Below, one piece after another: positions 541 to 46,767 of a DNA stretch of 64,000 nucleotides (the first letter of the stretch is position 1; every line of letters begins with the position of its first letter). Both the position numbers and the translations under genes were made by a program. The stretch covers positions 124,001 through 188,000 of the forward strand of contig NZ_AEIZ01000026.1 of the NCBI RefSeq assembly GCF_000165675.1, in the 5' to 3' direction. The notes beneath the pieces were generated by a model. It saw nothing but the letters and a program-made list of their open reading frames with translations. It was not told the origin of the DNA and did no database searches. Source of the stretch: Leuconostoc fallax KCTC 3537. Its GTDB lineage: Bacteria > Bacillota > Bacilli > Lactobacillales > Lactobacillaceae.

Positions 541-569
541 TTGACATAATATACTAATCATGTCATAAT
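541..569 (+). promoter_or_regulatory. Promoter of the leader peptide / ilvE operon
   Basis: A perfect -35 TTGACA lies at 541-546 and CATAAT at 564-569, with a 17-base spacer. Transcription would begin near 576, placing the Ile/Val leader ORF at the 5' end of the transcript. An overlapping alternative -10, TAATAT at 566-571, has a longer spacer. Confidence 0.75.
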
Positions 570-598: not shown

Positions 599-667
599 AT
601 GTCATATTTAAACGCTAACAATTTCACAGCAATTATTGTGGTCAACATTATTGTCATTATTATTTGA
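599..667 (+). CDS. Ile/Val-rich leader peptide (22 aa) of an attenuator
   Basis: This small ORF has a good ribosome binding site (AAAGGA, 585-590, 8 bases before the ATG). The first eleven residues are MSYLNANNFTA and the last eleven are IIVVNIIVIII, ending with TGA at 665-667. Ten of the last eleven codons are Ile (7) or Val (3). Such codon bias is the hallmark of ribosome-stalling leader peptides that sense charged branched-chain tRNAs. The ORF sits between a consensus promoter and a terminator, ahead of a transporter-like gene and a branched-chain aminotransferase. It probably acts in cis as a sensor; the peptide itself need have no function. Confidence 0.85.
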   Translation: MSYLNANNFTAIIVVNIIVIII

Positions 668-672
668 CAAAC

Positions 673-786
673 AGTGGTTGATCTATTTGCTTATGCAGCC
701 ACTCAAAAGGTAGTGGCTAGCATGTGCTGTTAATGTTTAAATGTGATTTAGACGTGCTAGTTATTAAAACTAGCGCGTTTTTATTT
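673..786 (+). promoter_or_regulatory. Branched-chain amino acid attenuator (alternative hairpins plus terminator)
   Basis: Five segments pair in a chain. Segment 1 (673-680) pairs with 2 (696-703), 8 bp. Segment 2 (693-703) pairs with 3 (712-723), 11 bp with bulged A719. Segment 3 (717-725) pairs with 4 (752-760), 9 bp. Segment 4 (752-762) pairs with 5 (768-778), 11 bp with one G-U, followed by TTTTT: an intrinsic terminator. A ribosome that finishes the leader would cover segment 1 and leave 2:3 plus 4:5 (termination). A ribosome stalled on the Ile/Val codons would leave segment 1 free, giving 1:2 plus 3:4 (read-through). The pairings are read from sequence; the mechanism is inferred from known attenuators. 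Confidence 0.8.
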
Positions 787-808: not shown

Positions 809-1966
809 ATGAAGAATTCATACAAGAAGCACTCGGATCGTCCTGATCCCAAAGAATTACAGCCAGGTACCGGGCCGTTAACACGCCCAGAAGAAAAAAT
901 GCGTGTTCGTGATTGGGTATATTCTGTATCTCAAGGCGTATCTAATACAATTTTAGCTGTATTGGGCATGGGCTTGCTATTAGCGATGCTTGGTGAGCAA
1001 CTCCACTGGCCTGCCTTACAAATGGCTGGTATCCAAGGCCAAAAACTTTTAGCACCTGCTTTGGGGATGGCCGTTGCCGTTATGCTTCGGACATCAACAT
1101 TAGTAACTGGTGCTAGTATGATTGCCGCCACTGTTGGTTCCAACGCCATCTATTTCACTGCTGCACCAATTTCAGGCGCAAGTACGGCCACTGGATGGGT
1201 TGCCTCTGGTAGTCATGCTTTGCCAGCAGGTTCCGCAGTTCTCACATCTGGTCAACCCATTTCAGCCGTTTTAGCTGCTGTAGTTGCTGCCGTTATTGGT
1301 AAGTGGTTAACAGGAAAAACACCCTTAGATATGGTATTGGTCCCATTGGCCTCAGCATTAGTTGGTTCCGTTGTCGGGCTTGGGTTAGCTACCGTCGTAA
1401 CACCCGCTTTAAATGCAGTGTCTAAAACATTAGCAAATACCATGCAAGTTAATCCAATTCTTGGTGCTATCATTGTATCGGTTGCTTGGTTTATTTTCTT
1501 AATGACGCCAGCCTCTTCAGCCGCCTTAGCTATTGCTGTTCAGTTAGATCCAATGAGTGCCGGTGCTGCGCTTATTGGAACAACAGTCGCCTTCGTTGCC
1601 TTCGCTGCAATGGCACCCATGCAAAATAATTTAGGTGCTAATATTGCACAAACAATCGTGACACCCAAGATTCAGTTTCCCAATTTACTTAAACGACCAA
1701 TTCTTGCTGTTGGTCCACTAGTAATTGCCGCCGTCATGTCTTGTATTGCAGTCGTCGTATTTCAATTTCAAGTACCGTATACAATCGGTGGTTTAGGTCT
1801 CAACAGTTTCATCGCGCCACTCACATTAACATCTACACCAAATAAACTACTTATTCTCATCGTATTTGGTATTGTTTTACCAGCAATACTATCATTTATT
1901 TATTATCGTTTCTTACAAACCATTGGTCAAACAAAACCCAACGACCTACACCTAGAAGAAGTTTAA
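809..1966 (+). CDS. EIIC-like (PTS_EIIC_2 / PfoR-type) membrane protein
   Basis: This 385-residue, very hydrophobic protein has about 8-10 predicted membrane segments after a charged cytoplasmic N-terminus of about 35 residues. It resembles the PTS_EIIC_2 family, which includes PfoR-like proteins, and has no attached EIIA or EIIB domain and no phosphorylatable Cys/His domain. GGGAGA at 798-803 is the ribosome binding site. It is the first structural gene after the Ile/Val attenuator, and ilvE follows 81 bases later without a terminator. The context suggests transport of branched-chain amino acids or keto acids rather than a sugar; this is inference. A second family member lies at 30512-31750. 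Confidence 0.7.
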   Translation: MKNSYKKHSDRPDPKELQPGTGPLTRPEEKMRVRDWVYSVSQGVSNTILAVLGMGLLLAMLGEQLHWPALQMAGIQGQKLLAPALGMAVAVMLRTSTLVTGASMIAATVGSNAIYFTAAPISGASTATGWVASGSHALPAGSAVLTSGQPISAVLAAVVAAVIGKWLTGKTPLDMVLVPLASALVGSVVGLGLATVVTPALNAVSKTLANTMQVNPILGAIIVSVAWFIFLMTPASSAALAIAVQLDPMSAGAALIGTTVAFVAFAAMAPMQNNLGANIAQTIVTPKIQFPNLLKRPILAVGPLVIAAVMSCIAVVVFQFQVPYTIGGLGLNSFIAPLTLTSTPNKLLILIVFGIVLPAILSFIYYRFLQTIGQTKPNDLHLEEV

Positions 1967-2047
1967 GCGTAATCATAGAAAATGATTTGAAAAATTAAAA
2001 TTAAACGAGTAATATTAAATAAATTAATAAGAATAGAGGAATATATT

Positions 2048-3088
2048 ATGACATCAGCAAAAGTTAAACCAGAAGATTTTGATTGGAATGACCTAGGCTT
2101 TGCCTATCATGAATTACCTTATCGCTATCGTGCTTACTATAAAGATGGTAAGTGGTCTGCTGGCGCATTAGAGACTTCAGCTACAATTCCTGTTCACGAA
2201 GCTGCTACCGGCCTTCATTATGGTCAACAAATTTTTGAAGGATTAAAGGCATATCGTCGTCCTGATGGTGGTGTTAACCTTTTTAGACCTGATATGAACG
2301 CAGCACGGTTAAACCGTTCTGCCAAACGACTCATGATGGCTGAATTTCCTGAAGAACAATTTGTCGAAGCACTTAAGCAAGTTGTTCAAGCAAATGCTGA
2401 TTTCATACCACCTTACGGTAGTGGTGCCACGCTATACTTACGCCCCTTTATGATTGGTCAAGGCCCTGTTGTTGGTGTTCATCCTGCTTCAGAATACGTT
2501 TTCACTATTTTTGCAACACCTGTTGGTGCTTATTATAAAGGTGGCCTAACACCAACTGCTTATGTTACCAATGAATATGATCGTGCAGCCCATGGTGGTA
2601 CTGGTCAAGCTAAAGCTGGTGGTAATTATGCAGCTAGTATGTTGCCTGGACACGAAGCCCACAAAGCCGGATATTCTGATGTCGTTTATCTAGATCCTCG
2701 TCTTCATGAATTTATTGAAGAACTAGGCTCAGCTAACTTCTTTGGTATTACGAAAGATGGTCAATTCAAGACGCCAAAGTCACCCTCAATTTTGCCATCA
2801 GTAACAAAATACTCACTCTTAGCTTTAGCTGAAGAATTTGGTATGCAACCAGAAGAAACAGCAATTAGTATTAATGACTTGGATGAATTTGCTGAAGCTG
2901 GCGCAATGGGAACAGCCGCAGTTATCTCACCAGTTGGTTCTATCACCCATAATGGTGATAAGCACGTCTTCTATTCTGAAACAGAAGTGGGCCCACAGAC
3001 TCAAAAGTTATATGATCGTTTGGTCAGCATTCAGTTTGGCGAACAAGAAGGTCCTGAAGGCTGGACAGTTGATGTCCCATTAGATTAA
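2048..3088 (+). CDS. ilvE: Branched-chain amino acid aminotransferase
   Basis: The 346-residue protein is a class IV (fold type IV) PLP aminotransferase that interconverts Leu/Ile/Val and their 2-keto acids with glutamate/2-oxoglutarate. The PLP lysine is K189 in GGTGQAKAGGNYAAS, typical of IlvE. The N-terminal FEGLKAYRRPDG and C-terminal region LDEFAEAGAMGTAAVISPVG (substrate/phosphate loop) also fit. AGAGGA precedes the ATG. It is probably cotranscribed with the upstream membrane protein and so controlled by the Ile/Val attenuator. Length matches the family. Confidence 0.95.
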   Translation: MTSAKVKPEDFDWNDLGFAYHELPYRYRAYYKDGKWSAGALETSATIPVHEAATGLHYGQQIFEGLKAYRRPDGGVNLFRPDMNAARLNRSAKRLMMAEFPEEQFVEALKQVVQANADFIPPYGSGATLYLRPFMIGQGPVVGVHPASEYVFTIFATPVGAYYKGGLTPTAYVTNEYDRAAHGGTGQAKAGGNYAASMLPGHEAHKAGYSDVVYLDPRLHEFIEELGSANFFGITKDGQFKTPKSPSILPSVTKYSLLALAEEFGMQPEETAISINDLDEFAEAGAMGTAAVISPVGSITHNGDKHVFYSETEVGPQTQKLYDRLVSIQFGEQEGPEGWTVDVPLD

Positions 3089-3126: not shown

Positions 3127-3917
3127 ATGGTTTCTGGGATTTAATACAAAACAAGCACAATTAGTTAACGCCTTATATCAGGCCTATCTTAATAATGTAG
3201 CGTTAGATATGACCGATTGGCAAAATACGGTTGATAATTTTAATACCGGCTATCTCATACAAGATGCGCTACTAAAAAGAAAATGAACGTATCACCGGCT
3301 ATAAAGTATCATTAACAAGTGATACAACCCAACAAATGTTCAATACTAACGAACCATTGTATGGTCAACAAGTTGCTTCCAGAGTACTCACTCACCCCGC
3401 CAATGTTTCTTTAGATAATTTAAATGAACCATTAATTGAAGTTGAGCTCGTTTTCACAGCTAAGAAAACTTTAACAACAGACATGGATCTCGCAGAACTA
3501 TTACAGAACAGTTTTATGAGTGGTGGTATCGAAGTACCCGATGCGCGTTTTAAAGATTGGTTTCCGACTTTGAATAAATATCTAGTCGTTAGTGATGCAG
3601 CTGTGGGTGGTTACATTGTTAGTGGTATACAGGTTGATGGTAATACATTAACAGTAGCTGATTTAAAAGACATTCACGTTGATACTTATCATAATGGTGC
3701 GCTCATTGCGAGTGGTGATGCAACAGAAGTATTGGGCAATCCACTTCATGCTTTGCAATGGTTAGTTAAAAAGTTAGCTCAAACTTGCAAACAGATTAAC
3801 CCTGGAGATACCATATCCGCTGGAACATTTTTCGTACCACCAAAACTCGTTAAAGGTGAGTATGAGGCAAAGTTCAGTGGTCCACTCACTCAAACAACTA
3901 TTTTGCATGTTAAATAA
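3127..3917 (+). pseudogene. 2-keto-4-pentenoate hydratase-like gene, two frameshifts
   Basis: The 3' two thirds (3336-3917) read FNTNEPLYGQQVASR, DLAELLQNSFMSGGIEVPDA and NPLHALQWLVKKL, recognisable as the fumarylacetoacetate hydrolase / 2-keto-4-pentenoate hydratase fold. Upstream, ATG at 3127 opens MVSG and the continuation FNTKQAQLVNALYQAYL is in another frame. A second break near 3278-3286 separates it from NERITGYKVSLTSD. Both breaks are cured by removing one base (GGG to GG, an A run shortened by one), unlike the single-base losses elsewhere in this window. It may be a true pseudogene or an error. It follows ilvE by 38 bases; the substrate is unknown. Confidence 0.7.
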
Positions 3918-4001: not shown

Positions 4002-4073
4002 GGCTCGTTGGTCAAGTGGCTAAGACGCTGCCCTTTCACGGCGGAATCGAGAGTTCGATTCTCTCACGAGCTA
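4002..4073 (+). tRNA. tRNA-Glu (UUC)
   Basis: A full cloverleaf is visible: acceptor GGCTCGT (4002-4008) with ACGAGCT (4066-4072), anticodon loop CTTTCAC with anticodon TTC, T arm GAGAG/CTCTC with loop TTCGATT, and discriminator A4073. The 1:72 pair is G-U. The 3' CCA is not encoded (genomic CTA follows). It stands alone between its own promoter and a terminator. Confidence 0.93.
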
Positions 4074-11603: not shown

Positions 11604-11632
11604 AAGACTGATCGCTATTTTGTATCAGCCTT
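11604..11632 (-). terminator. Terminator overlapping the stop of the second glutamine transporter gene
   Basis: Minus-strand AAGGCTGAT (11632-11624) pairs with ATCAGTCTT (11612-11604), followed by TTTTATTTG. The stop TGA (11627-11625) lies within the first arm. Confidence 0.8.
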
Positions 11633-13108
11633 TTGATGTAAAAAATCTAATTTCTAACCTTTTTTCTACCCAATTACTTAACCATGTTAACAATGTAATG
11701 ACAATCAAGTACATCACCGCAATGATTGCCCACACTCTGAAGCCTTGTGAATTACGTGCCACAATTAAGGTTCCGGTCTGCGTCAATTCTAACAACCCGA
11801 TCGCTGATAAAATAGACGTGTCCTTTAACGTAATAATGAATTGGTTAATAAAGCTCGGTACCATAATCCGCAACCCTTGCGGAACAATGACCTTCCGCAT
11901 CGCTTTACCATATGGCAAACCTAATGATCGTGCTGCTTCCATTTGACCCTTTTCAACTGCCTCAAAACCACCGCGAACAAACGCTGCTGTATAAGCACCC
12001 TCATTCAATACCAAAGTGATAATTCCTGCTAAGAAGGCTGGTACCTTGGTACCAATAACTGTTGGTAAACCAATATAGATGAAGAATGCCAACACCATCA
12101 AAGGTAACCCACGGAAAATATAAATCACCGTTGTGGATACGCCGCGCAACCACTTTGTTTCACTGATACCTAGAATACCTAAGAAAATACCCCAGATAGA
12201 AGCCAAAATAATAGCGAGTACTGTTAACTTAATCGTTTCAATCAAGCCATCAATGAAGGCCTTTCGATTAGTCTTTAACAAACCAAGTACTGAATTATTG
12301 TCACTTGTTTTACCAGTGAAGTGTTCTTGGCTTTTACCAAGATAAGACTTCACAATTTTGTCATATGTGCCATCTTTTTGAATTGACTTGAGACCCTGGT
12401 TGAAAGCAGTTAACAAGGCTTTGTTTTCACCTTTTTTAACAGCAAAGCCATACCAACCAGCATTGCCCAGTTGCTTAGCATTCATGACCTTTAACTTAAC
12501 ACCATTTTTAATCGCATATTGGATAACCGGCATATCTTCAAATGTCGCAACCGAATTACCTGCCACGACATCATTATACATAACGTTTGAATCGTTAAAG
12601 TACTTAACCTTAAAGCCATATTTTTTTGTAAACTTTTACCATAATCAGCTGCAGCAGTACCCGTTTTCAATGCAACTGTTTGTCCTTTTAATGCAGCTAA
12701 AGACGTAATGGTACTATCTTTCTTAACAATCCATGCAACACCAGTTTTATAGTATGGCGTACTGATATCATAAACCTGTTTCCGTTCATCAGTAATGACC
12801 ATACCAGCAATAATACCATCAGCTTGTCCGTTTGCAACTAGTTGGGCTGCAGAATTAAAGCTCATTGGTTTTAATGTGTAGGTGAATTTTTCACGCTTAG
12901 CAATTTCTTTTAAAATATCTTGATCAATACCCACATATCGATTATTTTGATCTTGAAAATCAAACGGTGGATAACTCGCATCAGTTGTAATTGTATAATT
13001 CGGCTTTTCTGCAGCTTGAACGTCTGTAGTAGGTAAAATAAAACTTACCATTACAACAAATATTGATAGCCATAAACCAAGCCAACTAGCGCTTCGTATT
13101 TTGTTCAT
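11625..13108 (-). CDS. Glutamine-type ABC transporter, fused binding protein and permease, copy 2 (frameshifted)
   Basis: The protein has a signal peptide, then a type 3 substrate-binding domain (ITTDASYPPFDFQDQNNRYV), then an AtpC/GlnP-type permease domain with GRRL-like SLGLPYGKAMRKVIVPQ. Such fusions import glutamine or other polar amino acids. The frame breaks in an A run (12621-12627); one more A joins SLQKKYGFKVKYFND to the rest. Its permease half is nearly identical at DNA level to copy 1 (13849-15300), while the binding domain is clearly diverged. The ATG overlaps the glnQ stop by one base. Confidence 0.9.
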
Positions 13109-13848
13109 TATGCATGCATCACCTTACCCAAGAATTCGCGTAAACGATCATTCTTCGGCGCACTAAAGATTTGATCTGGAGCTCCAGATTCTTGAATCTT
13201 ACCACTTTCAAAAAAGACAACACGATCCGCAACTTGTTTTGCAAATCCCATTTCATGAGTCACCACAATCATCGTAATCCCTTGTTTAGCTAAATCTTTC
13301 ATGACATCTAAGACATCACCGACCATTTCTGGATCCAAAGCTGATGTTGGTTCATCAAATAACAAAATATCTGGTTGCATCGCCAAAGAACGCGCAATGG
13401 CAACACGTTGCTTTTGACCGCCGGATAATGACTTAACATTAGCGTCTGCTTTATCAGCTAAGCCAACTGTATCTAACAATTCACGGCCTAACTTCTCAGC
13501 CTCAGTTTTATTCAACTTCCCCAATTCAACAGGCGCCAACATGATGTTTTCCAACACTGAATAGTTATTGAATAGGTTAAAGTTCTGAAATACCATACCG
13601 ATGTTTTCGCGTACTTTATTGATATCAGTCTCTGAATTACTAATATCAAAACCGTCCACAACAATTGTGCCACTATCTGGTGTTTCAAGTTGATTTAACA
13701 TTCTTAGAAAAGTAGATTTACCTGAACCCGATGGGCCAATCATAACGACAACTTCACCGTTTTTGATATCTAATGAGATATCACGTAACACATGATTACT
13801 CCCATAAGATTTATTTACTTTTTCAACATGTACTTTCACATCAGTCAT
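13108..13848 (-). CDS. glnQ: Polar amino acid ABC transporter ATPase
   Basis: The 246-residue ATPase has Walker [10 protein letters not shown] (residues 38-46), signature LSGGQKQR (140-147) and Walker [13 protein letters not shown] (160-171), all of the HisP/GlnQ class. It lies between the two binding protein/permease fusions, adjacent to both, and presumably energises either one. Confidence 0.95.
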
Positions 13849-15300
13849 TTAATTTTTCATCCTTTTTTCTACCCAATTACTTAGCCATGTTAACAATGTA
13901 ATGACAATCAAGTACATCACCGCAATGATTGCCCACACTCTGAAGCCTTGTGAATTACGTGCCACAATTAAGGTTCCGGTCTGCGTCAATTCTAACAACC
14001 CGATTGCTGATAAAATGGACGTGTCCTTTAACGTAATAATAAATTGGTTAATGAAGCTCGGTACCATAATCCGTAACCCTTGCGGAACAATTACCTTCCG
14101 CATCGCTTTACCATATGGCAAACCTAATGATCGTGCTGCTTCCATTTGACCTTTTTCAACTGCCTCAAAACCACCGCGAACAAACGCTGCTGTATAAGCA
14201 CCCTCATTCAATACCAAAGTGATAATTCCTGCCAAGAAGGCTGGTACCTTGGTACCAATAACTGTTGGTAAACCAATATAGATGAAGAATGCCAACACCA
14301 TCAAAGGCAATCCACGGAAAATATAAATCACCGTTGTGGATACGCCACGCAACCACTTTGTTTCACTGATACCTAGAATACCTAAGAAGATCCCCCAGAT
14401 GGAAGCCAAAATAATAGCGAGTACTGTTAACTTAATCGTTTCAATCAAGCCATCAATGAAGGCCTTTCGATTAGTCTTTAACAAACCAAGTACTGAATTA
14501 TTGTCACTTGTCTTACCAGTGAAGTGTTCTTGACTTTTACCAAGATAAGACTTCACAATTTTGTCATATGTGCCATCTTTTTGAATTGACTTGAGCCCCT
14601 GGTTGAAAGCAGTTAACAAGGCTTTGTTTTCACCCTTTTTTACAGCAAAACCAGACCAGCCGGCATCAAATAATTTATCAGCATTCATTATTTTAAGCTT
14701 CAATCCATTTTTGATCGCATATTGAATTACTGGTGCATCTTCAAATGTCGCAACCGAGTTACCAGAAACAACATCGTTATACATAATATTTGAATCATTG
14801 AAATATTTAACTTTAAAGCCATACTGAGACTGAATCTTCTTAGCATAATCAGCACCTGCAGTACCTGTCTTTAATGCAACCGTTTGTCCTTTCAATTCGC
14901 TAAGAGATTTAATATTGCTACCTTTTTTAGTGGCCCAAACAACGCCAGTTTTATAATAAGGCGTACTGAAATCAAAAACTTCTTTTCGCTCATCAGTAAT
15001 TGACATACCGGCAATGACACCGTCGGCTTGGCTACCAGCAACTAATTGAGTAGCAGAATTGAAACTCATTGCTTTTAACGTGTAAGTAAACCCTTCACGC
15101 TTAGCAATTTCTTTTAGAATATCAAGATCAATCCCCACATATTGATTATTTTGATCTTGAAAATCAAACGGTGGAAAACTTGCATCAGTTGTAATAACAT
15201 AATGCGGTTGTTTATCTGCATTAACCTGTTCACTTTGTGTCACTATCGTGATTGTTGCAATAAATATTGCAATACATATTAACCATATTTTTTTCATCAT
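13849..15300 (-). CDS. Glutamine-type ABC transporter, fused binding protein and permease, copy 1
   Basis: The intact 483-residue protein has a signal peptide (about 1-28), a periplasmic-binding-like domain (ITTDASFPPFDFQDQNNQYV to about residue 255) and a C-terminal permease of about five membrane segments. The EAA-type loop is ARSLGLPYGKAMRKVIVPQ. The natural fusion resembles the GlnPH proteins of lactic acid bacteria. It starts the three-gene unit; the ATPase gene follows without a gap. Copy 2 downstream shares the permease half almost exactly. Confidence 0.93.
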   Translation of the reverse strand: MMKKIWLICIAIFIATITIVTQSEQVNADKQPHYVITTDASFPPFDFQDQNNQYVGIDLDILKEIAKREGFTYTLKAMSFNSATQLVAGSQADGVIAGMSITDERKEVFDFSTPYYKTGVVWATKKGSNIKSLSELKGQTVALKTGTAGADYAKKIQSQYGFKVKYFNDSNIMYNDVVSGNSVATFEDAPVIQYAIKNGLKLKIMNADKLFDAGWSGFAVKKGENKALLTAFNQGLKSIQKDGTYDKIVKSYLGKSQEHFTGKTSDNNSVLGLLKTNRKAFIDGLIETIKLTVLAIILASIWGIFLGILGISETKWLRGVSTTVIYIFRGLPLMVLAFFIYIGLPTVIGTKVPAFLAGIITLVLNEGAYTAAFVRGGFEAVEKGQMEAARSLGLPYGKAMRKVIVPQGLRIMVPSFINQFIITLKDTSILSAIGLLELTQTGTLIVARNSQGFRVWAIIAVMYLIVITLLTWLSNWVEKRMKN

Positions 15301-30511: not shown

Positions 30512-31750
30512 TTAAAGATCTTGTTGGAAGTCCATTGGTGAATACAACTTCAATAATTTACTAAAGATGTATTGAGAAATCAAACCAGCAATGATAGGTA
30601 CAACCAACCATGCAATTAATCCAACCATTGGATTCACAAAATTATTCATTACTGTGCTAGGTACATTAGGGTCCTTAACCATTGATTGAATAGGTGAAAC
30701 TAATCCAATATAACCGAAACCAGCCGTAATCGGTGTACCTTGAATATTAAACAAAGCCACTGGAATACCTGAAATAGCAGCAGTCAATAAGAACGGTATC
30801 ATGGTAACAGGCTTAGCAAACACCGAAGGCATCATTCCCTTCATGGCACCTAATGCAATTGCGACTGTAACACCTGGCTTGTTGACACGCCATGAGTTAA
30901 TCAATAACACAATAGTCGTAGCTGCAACACCCATACCAGCTGCACCTGATCCAATACCAGATAAGCTAATTGCCAAGGCAATACCGACAGTTGATACTGG
31001 TGTAATAATAATAATAGCAAAAGCCATTGCAATCAACATGGCCATTGGTATTGGTGCCAAACGTGTAAACGTAGCCACCACATCACCAATCCAAGTTGTG
31101 ACATAGGCCACATATGGTGCAATTTCTTTACCTATCCAACCAACACCGCCGCCGACGATAATGGGACTCAAAATGATTGCAACTGAACCAAAGCCTTTGA
31201 GATAACGTGCAACTAACCAAGTAACGAACACTGCTAGTGCAGCAACAATCATCGCATTAATCACGTCACCGGCACCAGAAGCAATATAGACTGTTGATGG
31301 CGCTGGTAATGCTACCCCGGTTACTGGATTAACAAATCCTTTCGGTGCTGTTGCCCATTTAATTGATCCGGATGCAACTGCCGTCGCAATTGCGACAACA
31401 CCAACATCTAGACTCTTCATTTTAAATTGCAATGCAATTGCCATTCCAATTAAGAATGGAATTAACGATGTAAATAACGTTAAAATTGCGTTGAAATCAG
31501 CGCCCAACGCTGTTGTTCCTAATCCTGAATATTGAATAATGTACTTCATTACCGCACTAGGTAGCACACCAATCAAGATACCTTGAGCAGATCCAGATAA
31601 CACTTTAAAGAAGAAATCTTTCAAATGTAACTGTTGTGTACCATCAAAAATCTGAGGGGCAGCTTCTGAGGCTTTACGTGCATATTCAACATTACGTTTA
31701 CCCTGCGATTCTTTGGAAGCCCATTTGGAACCATTAGCTTTAATAGCCAT
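30512..31750 (-). CDS. EIIC-like (PTS_EIIC_2 / PfoR-type) membrane protein, second copy
   Basis: The 412-residue membrane protein is in the same family as the product of 809-1966, with about ten helices, Gly-rich repeats (VAIILSPIIVGGGVGWIGKE, GMGVAATTIVLLINSWRVNK) and no EIIA/EIIB domain. I prefer the start MAIKANGS at 31750 because GGAG lies at a proper distance; ATG at 31759 is too close to it. It follows D-ldh but has no attenuator and is separated by the ldh terminator. The substrate is unknown. Confidence 0.75.
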   Translation of the reverse strand: MAIKANGSKWASKESQGKRNVEYARKASEAAPQIFDGTQQLHLKDFFFKVLSGSAQGILIGVLPSAVMKYIIQYSGLGTTALGADFNAILTLFTSLIPFLIGMAIALQFKMKSLDVGVVAIATAVASGSIKWATAPKGFVNPVTGVALPAPSTVYIASGAGDVINAMIVAALAVFVTWLVARYLKGFGSVAIILSPIIVGGGVGWIGKEIAPYVAYVTTWIGDVVATFTRLAPIPMAMLIAMAFAIIIITPVSTVGIALAISLSGIGSGAAGMGVAATTIVLLINSWRVNKPGVTVAIALGAMKGMMPSVFAKPVTMIPFLLTAAISGIPVALFNIQGTPITAGFGYIGLVSPIQSMVKDPNVPSTVMNNFVNPMVGLIAWLVVPIIAGLISQYIFSKLLKLYSPMDFQQDL

Positions 31751-31783
31751 CTCACTCATCTCCTAAATTATTACGTAAAAAAC

Positions 31784-31821: not shown

Positions 31822-32847
<1,026 letters not shown>

Positions 32848-35703: not shown

Positions 35704-38570
35704 TCAATCTGGCATTACACGTGCACGATTTCTTTCAATGACTTGTTTCAAATATTGGCCAGTATACGATTCTGCAGTATTCATTACCTTATTAGACGTC
35801 CCAGCAACTAATACTTTACCACCACCAGCACCACCTTCTGGTCCCATATCAATAATCCAGTCTGCAGATTTAATGACATCTAAATTATGTTCAATCACAA
35901 CAATGGTATTCCCTTGATCAACTAATCGGTTGAGAACTTCTAACAATCGTGCAATATCATCTGTATGCAAGCCTGTAGTTGGTTCATCCAAGATGTAGAG
36001 CGTTTTGCCATTCGTACGACGATGCAGTTCGGAAGCTAACTTCATGCGTTGCGCTTCACCACCTGATAATGTTGTCGCACTTTGTCCTAATTTAATATAA
36101 CCTAAGCCAACATCAACAATAGTTTGTAGTTTACGTGCAATTTTAGGTATTGGTGAAAAGAATTCGAGTGCTTGATTGACTGTCATCTCTAAAATTTGAG
36201 AGATATTCATTCCTTTGTACGTCACCTCTAGCGTTTCTGAATTATAACGCGTTCCACCACAGACTTCACAAGCCACATAAACATCAGGCAAGAAGTTCAT
36301 TTCAATCTTGATGACGCCATCCCCACGACAATTTTCACAACGGCCACCTTTGGTATTAAATGAAAAGCGCCCTTTATTGTAACCACGCATTTTGGCGTCA
36401 TTCGTTTGTGCAAATAGTTCACGTATATCATCAAATACACTAGTGTATGTTGCCGGATTAGATCGTGGTGTTCGGCCAATAGGTGATTGGTCAATATCAA
36501 CTACTTGTTCAATATTTTCAACGCCTTCAATTGCTTTGAATTTTCCAGGCTTTTCAGAGTTATTATTCAATTTTTGTTTCAGTGCACGTTTTAGGATGGT
36601 ATTCACTAAGGTTGATTTACCTGATCCAGAAACGCCACTCACAGCAATAAATTGACCGAGTGGGAATTTCACATTAATATTTTTTAGGTTATTTTCTTTA
36701 GCGCCTTTTATCGTAATAAATTTACCATTACCCTTACGTCGTTCTTGTGGTAACGGTATTGCTTTCTTACCCGATAAATATTGGCCAGTTAAAGAATCGG
36801 GATTAGCTTCAACTTCCTTTGGCGTGCCATTGGCAATGATTTTACCACCTTGCATTCCCGCACCTGGACCAACATCAATCAAATAGTCAGCAGCTCGCAT
36901 TGTATCTTCATCATGCTCAACAACAACTAAGGTATTCCCCAAATCTCTCATGTGTCGCATGGCATTTAACAGCATATCATTATCACGTTGATGTAACCCA
37001 ATTGATGGTTCGTCTAAAACATATAGCACACCCGACAAATTAGAGCCAATTTGTGTGGCTAATCTAATACGCTGTGATTCACCGCCGGACAAAGTCCGTG
37101 CTGATCTTGATAACGTTAAATAAGATAACCCAACACTTTGAAGGAATCCCAAGCGATCTTTAATTTCCTTAATAATCGGTGCAGCAATTTCTGTATCCTG
37201 TTGTCCCAAAGTTAATGACGCAAAAAAGTCGAGTTCCTCATTAACTGGTAATTCGGAAACTTCACCAATATGTTTGCCAGCTATTTTAACGGATAAGGCG
37301 GCTGGGTTCAACCTATAGCCATGACATTGCTGACACGTTAACGCCGTCATATAATGGCTCATCTGTTCTCTAGTAAAATCAGAATTTGTTTCATTAAATC
37401 GACGTTTAATATTATTCAATACGCCCTCAAAGGCAACATCGACATCGCGAACACCACCAAATTCATTTTGATAATGAAAATGGAATGTTGTTTCTCCCGA
37501 ACCATTTAAAATCAATTGTTGCTTATCTTTAGTCAGTTTTTCAAATGGTATATCCATATCAATATCAAACTGATCAGCAAATTGACGTAACATTTCAGGG
37601 TAGTAATTCGATGAAATCGGATTCCATGGTGTAATGGCGCCATCAGCTAATGATAAACTCATATCCGGTACAACTAAATCAATATCAACTTCACGTTGAA
37701 CACCTAATCCTTGACACACGGGGCATGCACCTAAAGGCGCATTAAAACTAAAGAGTCTTGGCTCTAGGCGACCAACACGAAAATCACGTAACTCGCCTAA
37801 ATAATGTGTTGAAAATTTAAGTAATTGATTCTCTTCATTTGTGTCTCGCGATACCATTTCTAACGTCACTTGTCCATCTGTCAAGCGTACAGCAGCTTCA
37901 AGAGAGTCAAACAGTCGCGATCTAACATTATCTCGTAACACAATACGATCAATCATGACATCAATATCATGATATTGATTTTTATTAAGATGAATATCTT
38001 CACTATCAACTTCTTGGATATCACCATCAATTTTGGCACGAATATAGCCCTGCTTGCGCATATTTTCAAACGCCGTTTCATGAGAACCACGTACATGTTG
38101 AATAATCGGCGCAAAAATTTGTAGCCGTGTCCCTTCAGCCAAATTTTTTGTACATAATCAACCATTTGATCAACAGTATACATGATTTTAGTACCGTCTT
38201 CTGGATCGTCTGGTCGTCCTATTCGTGCATAAAGCAAACGAAAATAATCATTAATTTCAGTAACAGTACCAACAGTTGAACGTGGATTATTACTCGTTGT
38301 TTTTTGATCAATAGATATCGCAGGTGACAGGCCGTCAATTGAATCAACATCCGGTTTATCCATTTGTCCTAAAAATTGGCGCGCATAAGAACTTAATGAT
38401 TCTACATACCGCCTTTGCCCTTCGGCATACAAAGTATCAAAAGCTAATGATGACTTCCCCGATCCAGAAAGGCCAGTCACAACAGTCAAACTTTCCTTAG
38501 GTATATCAACATCAATATTTTTCAAGTTATGTGCTCTTGCGCCTCTTATTTCAATATGGTCCTTTGCCAT
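35704..38570 (-). CDS. uvrA: Excinuclease ABC subunit A (frameshifted)
   Basis: UvrA recognises DNA damage. The N-terminal Walker A is [19 protein letters not shown], and the second is [11 protein letters not shown]. There are Cys-rich zinc fingers ([39 protein letters not shown]) and two ABC signatures ([24 protein letters not shown]). A lost A (plus T run 38144-38149) splits the gene near residue 143; one base rejoins it to about 955 residues, the normal length. It follows uvrB by 31 bases. Confidence 0.96.
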
Positions 38571-45065: not shown

Positions 45066-46767
45066 TTATTTAACGCGCTTCAATAGATCACTTTCGATAT
45101 CATCTAACTTAGCTTGTGATTTAGCTTGTGAATCTGATTCAACACCGACATATAATTTCAACTTAGGTTCTGTACCAGAAGGACGTACAGCTACCCATGA
45201 GCCATCAGCTAACCAATACTTCAATACATTTGCTTTTGGTTGTGTCAAAGTAGTTGTTGCGCCTGTGGTAATATTTGTTTCAGTCTGGGTACTAAAATCT
45301 TGTAATCTTTCAACGGCTATACCACCAACAGTAACTGGTGCATTGTTTCGGAAATCAGCCATAACACCGGCCATTTCATCAGCACCATTAATACCTGGGA
45401 AGTCTAAGCTAACCGTCTTTTCTTCAAAATAGCCAAATTGCGCAAACAATTCTTGTATGCCATCATACATTGTCTTATTTTGTGATTTGTAATAAGCTGC
45501 AACTTCGGCAAATAATACCAATGCCTGAATAGCATCTTTATCATGTGCAAATGGCTTAACTAAATAACCGAAACTTTCTTCAAATCCAAACAAGAAAGTT
45601 TTTCTTGTGTTGCTTCAAAACGATCAATTGTCGCAGCAATATATTTAAATCCTGTCAAAACGTCTGTCGTTGTAACACCAAAACTTGCAGCTACCTTTGA
45701 TGCAAAACGCGATGACACCACAGAAGTAACAATAGCACCATTATTGGGCAAAGTACCTGTATTTTTCTTAGCTGTCAAAAGATAATTGACCAGCACTGCA
45801 GCAATTTGATTTCCTGTTAGCACCTGATAAGAACCATCATTCAGACGTACTGCTGCACCCAAACGATCAGCATCAGGATCAGTTGCAACAACCGCATCCG
45901 CATTATTTCGCTTAGCATACTCAATAGCTAAAGCCAACGCTTCAGGATCTTCGGGGTTGGGTTTCTTCACCGTAGGAAAATCGCCATCAATAACAGCTTG
46001 TTCTTTAACAATTGTGTAGTTTGTAAAGCCAGCTTGCTGTAATGCCTTCTCACCAATATACTGTCCCGTACCATGTAAAGGTGTAAAGACAAATTGCAAT
46101 CCCCTACCTTCTCGGGCAACCAAATCTGCATCAACCGTTACATTTTTAACGTTTGCTAAATATTTATTATCAACATCATCGTCAATTTCAGTCACATGTT
46201 GATTTGTTGAATCTAATTTAATATTGAAGATATCCTCAATATCATTTAATTCTGAAACAACTGCGTCAACAGCTTCTGGTGTCATCTGTCCACCATCTTC
46301 GCCATAAATCTTGTACCCATTATATGCTTTGGGATTGTGAGATGCTGTAATCATAATACCCGCAAATGTCTTCAATTCACGAACTGTAAAAGACAATTCA
46401 GGTGTTGGACGGAGACTAGTGAATAGGTAAGATTTTATGCCGTGAGCACTGAGCACTTGCGCAGCATCCCTTGCAAATTCAGGGGAGAAGTGACGTGAAT
46501 CAAAACTGATTGCAACGCCTCTTTTTTAGCTTCTTCACCAACAGAATCCATGTAACGCGCCAAAGCTTCAGTTACTTGTCTTACCGTGAAAATATTCATA
46601 CGGTTACTACCAACGCCTAAAATACCACGCATACCTGCTGTGCCAAAGCTTAGGTTTTGATAAAAAGCATCTTCTAATTGTTCTTCACTTAAATCATTCA
46701 ACTCTTCTTGAAGGTAATCAGGTAATTTTGCTGACTGCCATTGTGACAAAGTCTCTTTCCACGTCAT
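45066..46767 (-). CDS. pgm: Phosphoglucomutase / phosphomannomutase (two frameshifts)
   Basis: An alpha-D-phosphohexomutase of about 568 residues. The first fragment has FGTAGMRGILGVGSNRMN (substrate loop). The second has the catalytic serine loop MITASHNPKAYNGYKIY and the metal loop DPDADRLG. The third has the phosphate-binding loop VRPSGTEPKLKLY. Breaks in A runs (plus T runs 46522-46527 and 45599-45603) each need one base. It interconverts glucose-1-P and glucose-6-P, and follows sucrose phosphorylase, whose product is glucose-1-P. All catalytic loops being intact argues against a true pseudogene. Confidence 0.95.

Follow-up and report, generated by a model that had tools for sequence, protein, structure and literature searches.

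Leader-peptide control and gene context point to a branched-chain acid transport role for a PTS_EIIC_2 (PfoR-like) membrane protein of Leuconostoc fallax

PTS_EIIC_2 (PfoR-like) membrane proteins are currently annotated as sugar phosphotransferase system (PTS) components or as toxin regulators, and the question raised by the locus described here is why the gene for one of them should stand, in Leuconostoc fallax KCTC 3537, between an Ile/Val attenuator and ilvE. The gene, called pfoR below, lies at the start of a 64,000-nucleotide stretch of contig NZ_AEIZ01000026.1 (positions 124,001 to 188,000, forward strand; hereafter the window). The initial annotation proposed that its product transports branched-chain amino acids (BCAA) or keto acids, and as a prediction this is supported by the leaders, T-boxes and ilvE pairing set out below. 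Judged from sequence, it is highly probable that the protein is a branched-chain acid transporter of some kind, when import of oxo acids, uptake of BCAA and export are taken together. The reading that we tentatively place first, at a little short of an even chance, is that it brings branched-chain 2-oxo (or 2-hydroxy) acids into the cell without the PTS, and that IlvE would aminate them during BCAA starvation. We infer the starvation response, the inward direction and the substrate class from regulation and gene context.

Two genes make up the range 809–3088, pfoR and ilvE, with products of 385 and 346 residues (Table 1). The sole Pfam match of the pfoR product is PF13303 (PTS_EIIC_2; 215.6 bits against a cut-off of 28.9), a full-length profile match spanning protein residues 39–381 and positions 2–326 of the 327-position model, and the ilvE product matches TIGR01123 (ilvE_II) with 416 bits against a cut-off of 250. 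That pfoR stands between an Ile/Val attenuator and ilvE with no terminator between the two genes, as first annotated, was confirmed by scans for open reading frames (ORFs), leaders, hairpins and terminators: the terminator scan found none between pfoR and ilvE, and the gap (1940–2062) showed no notable RNA structure (z +1.18). Upstream of pfoR, a ribosome-binding site precedes a leader ORF of 22 codons whose run of Ile and Val codons encodes the C-terminal end IIVVNIIVIII, and this is followed by a terminator and, in the predicted folds, a mutually exclusive antiterminator, as in a BCAA leader-peptide attenuator. The ilv and leu operons carry Ile/Val and Leu attenuators with leader peptides; the window leader resembles these in its peptide, alternative hairpins and terminator, but differs in governing a transporter-like gene and ilvE rather than a biosynthetic operon, in a genome without an ilvD match. 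No known Rfam leader was matched in the window at gathering score.

Table 1. Features of the pfoR–ilvE locus (positions are those of the window)
Feature	Position	Strand	Remarks
Sigma-70-type promoter-like site, TTGACA-17-CATAAT (11/12)	541..569	+	consensus match only
Leader peptide ORF MSYLNANNFTAIIVVNIIVIII	599..667	+	Ile/Val codons 632-664, stop 665-667
Segments 1 (673-680) and 2 (696-703), pairing with ribosome stalled at early Ile codons	673..703	+	predicted fold
Alternative hairpin, ribosome at leader stop; frees terminator	689..727	+	predicted fold
Antiterminator: 712-729 pairs with 749-765 (17 bp), sequesters 5' arm of terminator	712..765	+	predicted fold
Intrinsic terminator hairpin, 13 bp, T-rich tail	750..780	+	terminator scan
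pfoR, PTS_EIIC_2 / PfoR-like membrane protein, 385 aa	809..1966	+	predicted branched-chain (2-oxo) acid transporter
ilvE, branched-chain amino acid aminotransferase	2048..3088	+	TIGR01123
Broken 2-keto-4-pentenoate-hydratase-like homologue, after ilvE	3149..3917	+	two tblastn pieces, two frames
tRNA gene, only Rfam match of the window	4002-4073	+	

The leader RNA (585–810) folds at -72.3 kcal/mol (z -7.07), a stability attained by 0 of 200 shuffles. With a ribosome at the leader stop the longer sequence is predicted to fold with the terminator, and the predicted sequestration of the terminator arm is 0.93 (mean) in the stalled state versus 0.55 in the stop state; when the upstream stretch was shuffled 300 times, no shuffle attained 0.93. 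Stalled-state folding has more sequence to pair, an effect that averages only 0.01 in the window shuffles. Sequestration of the terminator arm was likewise higher in the stalled than in the stop state for all 29 leaders with a scored terminator, namely that of the window, those of 27 orthologous loci and that of a paralogue in the same genome. As a control, 274,232 bases of the same contig were searched on both strands; 45 leader-like ORFs were found, three of them with a terminator and a downstream ORF, and among these three only the window leader had at least eight Ile, Leu or Val residues in its last 13.

Does this leader belong to pfoR or to ilvE? In a family-wide sample of 201 Lactobacillaceae genomes, a match to the PfoR-like protein was present, at any distance, in 126. 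The closest 20 loci of this sample (L005–L024; about 53–100% identical) all have a leader with an Ile/Leu/Val-rich end, including those of species in which ilvE is elsewhere, and no convincing leader was seen in the next 10 of the best 30 (L005–L034). A named set of 80 orthologous loci contained 27 with leaders, from Leuconostoc, Weissella, Periweissella, Convivina, Fructobacillus, Oenococcus, Fructilactobacillus lindneri and one metagenome-assembled genome; the detector flagged 30, of which three (L111, L134 and L149) were judged to be chance and dropped. Of these 27 loci, 16 have ilvE beside the gene and 10 do not, while L087 is on a contig too short to tell. Five Weissella species have ilvE first, then the leader, then pfoR, an order in which the leader cannot serve ilvE. 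The BCAA-type leader is that of the pfoR gene rather than of ilvE.

Control of a second kind is indicated in Ligilactobacillus, where a putative T-box precedes pfoR in all three loci (L114, L138 and L140), with scores of 73.6, 58.9 and 45.3 bits (E 2.3e-14, 1.4e-10 and 4.3e-7) that are below the RF00230 gathering score of 93. The specifier of a T-box is the codon ahead of a conserved A, and by hand that of the pfoR T-boxes reads CUC, for Leu. A divergent hydratase-like gene at these loci has its own T-box (100.2, 71.5 and 76.2 bits) with the specifier AUC, for Ile; Rfam searches of 27 loci at gathering score gave one T-box, oriented towards the divergent hydratase gene. When the regions upstream of the 80 named loci were searched by pattern, they returned the three Ligilactobacillus T-boxes together with weak single matches at L091, L108 and L130 and one before ilvE in L081. 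One locus (L099), whose contig is cut upstream, was left out of the leader and T-box counts. Control by leader and T-box would mean that the pfoR gene is needed when BCAA are short.

The same kind of control extends to known transport genes of this genome. On contig C29, the intact brnQ gene has the leader MMSIQFTSTEQILPSVVVSVY and a broken brnQ copy the leader MYTSNVVTELVIISAIIII; the leaders of the two genes (L155 and L157) are Val- or Ile/Val-rich. Since both brnQ genes have leaders of their own, leader peptides seem to control an entire group of BCAA transport genes in this genome. Moreover, a second pfoR paralogue (C5:106642; 44–47% identical) has the Leu-type leader MTNQYVRLNQTLLLNLLLI. 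Behind it lies the gene for an APC permease that scores best with the BcaP model of NCBIfam, its 440 bits falling short of the cut-off of 690. These observations support a branched-chain role for pfoR and also suit a different explanation, that the pfoR product is a permease for Leu, Ile and Val themselves beside BrnQ and BcaP, with ilvE co-expressed because both genes answer BCAA shortage. BCAA attenuation suits uptake genes, and T-box-controlled BCAA symporters, some LIVCS members among them, are described in PMC2494555, which predicts transporter specificity from T-boxes and whose main text does not mention PfoR. Nevertheless, it is not obvious why an auxotroph should need more IlvE if the amino acid enters ready-made, and the enzymes recurrently encoded beside pfoR (below) use oxo or hydroxy acids, not amino acids; we regard a BCAA permease as rather unlikely, though it is the foremost alternative. 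The pfoR product shares its kind of leader with BrnQ and the LIVCS symporters (PF05525) but is unlike them in sequence, the Pfam scan of the protein having given PF13303 alone while the PF05525 matches of the genome are on C29. BrnQ is present in 157 of the 201 family genomes and the PfoR-like match in 126; replacement of BrnQ by the PfoR-like protein was ruled out, as brnQ and pfoR co-occur in the L. fallax genome.

A survey of the neighbourhood of the orthologues, proposed in the initial annotation, showed that 23 of the 80 named loci have ilvE no more than 6 kb away (15 in the order pfoR–ilvE, seven in the order ilvE–pfoR and one divergent) and that 13 of the 30 best family-sample loci have it within 1.5 kb. 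When 144 immediate neighbours were sorted by Pfam family, Aminotran_4 came first (22 cases) and D-2-hydroxyacid dehydrogenase second (8). The arrangement label changes seven to eight times on the protein tree, so pairing with ilvE has been gained or lost repeatedly, even if related loci do not count as independent. Other partners recur: in Liquorilactobacillus the order is ilvE, pfoR and a dehydrogenase gene whose product has as its best PDB match 1hyh, L-2-hydroxyisocaproate dehydrogenase (HicDH; 275.7 bits, the next being lactate dehydrogenase with 173.5); a PanE/ApbA-type reductase gene follows pfoR in Weissella cibaria and W. confusa; a D-2-hydroxyacid dehydrogenase gene is divergent to pfoR in nine Leuconostoc loci; and in Apilactobacillus a tandem pfoR pair is convergent with AzlCD. 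HicDHs, PanE-type reductases and D-hydroxyacid dehydrogenases all have 2-oxo acids as substrates, which for the PanE-type enzymes of lactic acid bacteria include the branched-chain ones. As it is 2-oxo acids, not amino acids, that the neighbouring enzymes share, we rank an oxo acid before an amino acid as substrate.

The same neighbours can be read in the opposite direction, with the protein exporting branched-chain 2-hydroxy or 2-oxo acids such as 2-hydroxyisocaproate, or exchanging them for the amino acid, at the end of Leu breakdown and in the service of redox balance. The adjoining genes for L-HicDH, PanE-type and D-2-hydroxyacid dehydrogenases and AzlCD are consistent with this, and production of 2-hydroxyisocaproate by a Leuconostoc species, Leuconostoc lactis, is described in PMC5589888. 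Leaders and T-boxes of this type, however, raise expression at BCAA shortage, the wrong sign for a catabolic exporter, and we consider export improbable.

The name of the Pfam family suggests instead a membrane component of a sugar PTS, an idea in keeping with both the PF13303 match and the predicted fold. An AlphaFold2 model of the 385-residue protein had a predicted local distance difference test score (pLDDT) of 75.8 and a predicted template modelling score (pTM) of 0.70, with residues 114–148 poorly modelled. When residues 29–381 were compared with other structures, a PtsG model gave Z 21.9, the MalT crystal structure Z 18.5 (root-mean-square deviation 3.9 over 313 residues) and ChbC Z 9.9, unrelated structures beginning at Z 6.7; in the model, the overall fold is that of a glucose-superfamily EIIC. 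Sequence identity is about 12%. PDB sequence searches found no relative, the protein yielding a single row at chance level (E 0.95) and its profile none. PTS EIICs of the glucose superfamily keep a catalytic Glu and a His in the sugar site. No conserved Glu was found in the membrane part among 43 aligned orthologues, in which D174 and K287 are the only fully conserved charges; K170 is kept in 42 and H66, the only largely conserved His of the transmembrane part and near a loop, in 40. In a very weak hhalign alignment of the orthologue profile with Escherichia coli PtsG (probability 0.4%), the motif TPK(V/I)QF, which contains K287, is set against ITEPIEF, a hint at most that the invariant Lys287 may take the place of the catalytic Glu. 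The initial annotation had also argued from the lack of EIIA and EIIB domains that sugar phosphorylation is unlikely. The Pfam scan did find neither domain in the pfoR product, a single-domain protein, but taken alone the argument proves little, many PTS having separate subunits. A better one is that EIIA and EIIB partners are missing from beside the gene as well and that a conserved transmembrane Glu is lacking. Homologues standing mainly beside sugar PTS genes, the outcome named at the outset as one that would speak against branched-chain transport, were not seen, there being no PTS family among the 25 commonest of the 83 families represented by the 144 immediate neighbours. With the BCAA-type control added, a sugar PTS component is scarcely credible.

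The historical name PfoR implies a membrane-bound regulator, and relatives are annotated as regulators in some genomes. pfoR was once suspected of regulating pfoA, a view contradicted by a later mutant study in which, according to the account in the review PMC4448169, a pfoR mutation in Clostridium perfringens left pfoA expression unchanged. The protein consists, besides, almost wholly of membrane-type helices with an EIIC fold, and a regulatory role seems very improbable. No substrate has been demonstrated for PF13303 proteins in the papers found, and no branched-chain substrate for PF13303 or PfoR was found in the open-licence literature, where queries for PfoR were swamped by pyruvate:ferredoxin oxidoreductase and PMC10105947 proved to be a false match; the present clade (about 45–69% identical to the window protein) is partly marked by BCAA leaders, T-boxes and ilvE.

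Import of oxo acids is placed first on account also of the predicted metabolism of the cell. The L. fallax genome (1.64 Mb, Lactobacillaceae, with four PF13303 genes) gave no match to ilvD at 91% completeness, and ilvD was likewise without a match in 16 of 20 leader-bearing genomes; in such a cell IlvE could presumably supply Ile and Val only from imported oxo acids. The following sequence of events can be envisaged. A shortage of charged Ile, Val or Leu tRNA would stall the ribosome on the Ile/Val codons of the leader, whereupon 673–680 would pair with 696–703, the antiterminator would form and pfoR and ilvE would be transcribed. The EIIC-fold protein, acting as a secondary transporter without PTS phosphorylation, would bring in branched-chain 2-oxo (or 2-hydroxy) acids, and IlvE would aminate the imported oxo acids to Ile, Val and Leu in a cell unable to make Ile and Val. 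If this is correct, evolution has made a carboxylate transporter that needs no phosphorylation out of an EIIC fold, and many annotations are wrong. Lactic acid bacteria would then have a way of taking up branched-chain keto and hydroxy acids, which are of relevance to fermented food.

Several points weigh against the import of oxo acids under BCAA control. Neither leader nor T-box is present in 49 of the 80 named loci, and 57 have no ilvE within 6 kb. ilvD is present in four of the 20 leader-bearing genomes (G045, G053, G120 and G159), and its absence from the L. fallax genome rests on 91% completeness. The IlvE reaction is reversible, so the ilvE neighbourhood does not fix the direction of transport, and the leader would be accounted for just as well by BCAA uptake. 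In the window, 14 of 300 shuffles matched the rise in sequestration between the stop and the stalled state, so that this difference taken alone is marginal. Finally, none of the 30 top clostridial PF13303 loci (L224–L253), whose 103 ORFs were read by eye without a Pfam scan, has 2-oxo-acid enzymes of the type found in Bacilli.

The Bacilli in question come from a class-level sample of 250 genomes, 80 of them with PF13303, from which the 30 best loci were taken with their 91 neighbour ORFs within 1.5 kb; these ORFs were clustered, and unscanned cluster members were assigned by similarity. Thirteen of the 30 have a gene for a 2-oxo- or 2-hydroxyacid enzyme within that distance; the 30 are the highest-scoring loci, many from the same genera, and not 30 independent draws. 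The enzymes are leucine dehydrogenase (L184, L185, L187 and L194; at L185 the best PDB match is leucine dehydrogenase, 541.6 bits), PanE type (L174, L182, L188 and L190), pyruvate formate-lyase or its activase (L179, L184, L185, L187, L192 and L194), a 2-oxoacid dehydrogenase complex (L181 and L188) and D-lactate dehydrogenase (L176 and L177). Twenty wider Bacilli regions were partly chosen for earlier sightings, and no rate is derived from them. PF13303 genes lie in, or end, operons for 2-oxoacid dehydrogenase (E3, E1 alpha, E1 beta and E2) in L204 (5993–7033, -) and L205 (6072–7199, +), and L219, which belongs to a different family of the order, has a homologue of only about 25% identity with ilvE directly behind it, 57% identical to the window ilvE. 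The window itself contains a further, distant PF13303 paralogue that shares about 25% identity with the first and comes directly after a D-lactate dehydrogenase gene (30512–31759, -, and 31822–32829, -); the best PDB match of that dehydrogenase is 2dld, D-lactate dehydrogenase (486 bits), with D-HicDH (1dxy) at 234, and the pair recurs in L215/L216. This paralogue is possibly a lactate or pyruvate transporter.

A generalization, which we offer with some reserve and hold less firmly than the reading for pfoR itself, is that the orphan PTS_EIIC_2/PfoR proteins of Bacilli are PTS-independent transporters of 2-oxo and 2-hydroxy monocarboxylates, not sugar permeases, with clades tuned to their partner enzymes: branched-chain acids beside IlvE, leucine dehydrogenase, HicDH and PanE-type enzymes, and pyruvate or lactate beside pyruvate formate-lyase, D-lactate dehydrogenase and 2-oxoacid dehydrogenase complexes. 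The link to oxo acids appears to hold for Bacilli in this sample and is not extendable to the whole PF13303 family; a 2-oxo-acid role in all Firmicutes was rejected for now on the clostridial result given above. The clostridial neighbours, read by eye, include murI, nadC, selD and xanthine-dehydrogenase-like genes among others. Also by eye, PF13303 adjoins xanthine-dehydrogenase-like or selD-like genes in L246, L248 and L251 and in L235, L236 and L253, a hint that the clostridial proteins may have another substrate.

The hydratase-like remnant behind ilvE, whose family was assigned via a homologue in locus L104, changes frame near 3276–3283; hydratase-like homologues adjoin pfoR in Fructobacillus, W. 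cibaria and Ligilactobacillus. Elsewhere in the window, at 35704–38570 and 45066–46456 (-), each of several housekeeping genes, which by eye resemble uvrA and phosphoglucomutase, is broken up into frames that overlap. Single-base errors in the draft assembly are therefore likely, and the broken state of the hydratase-like gene may be an artefact of assembly. At 11625–15300 (-) there are two near-identical genes for fused amino acid ABC binding protein and permease, with one ATPase gene between them, and one of the two fusion copies is split into two frames.

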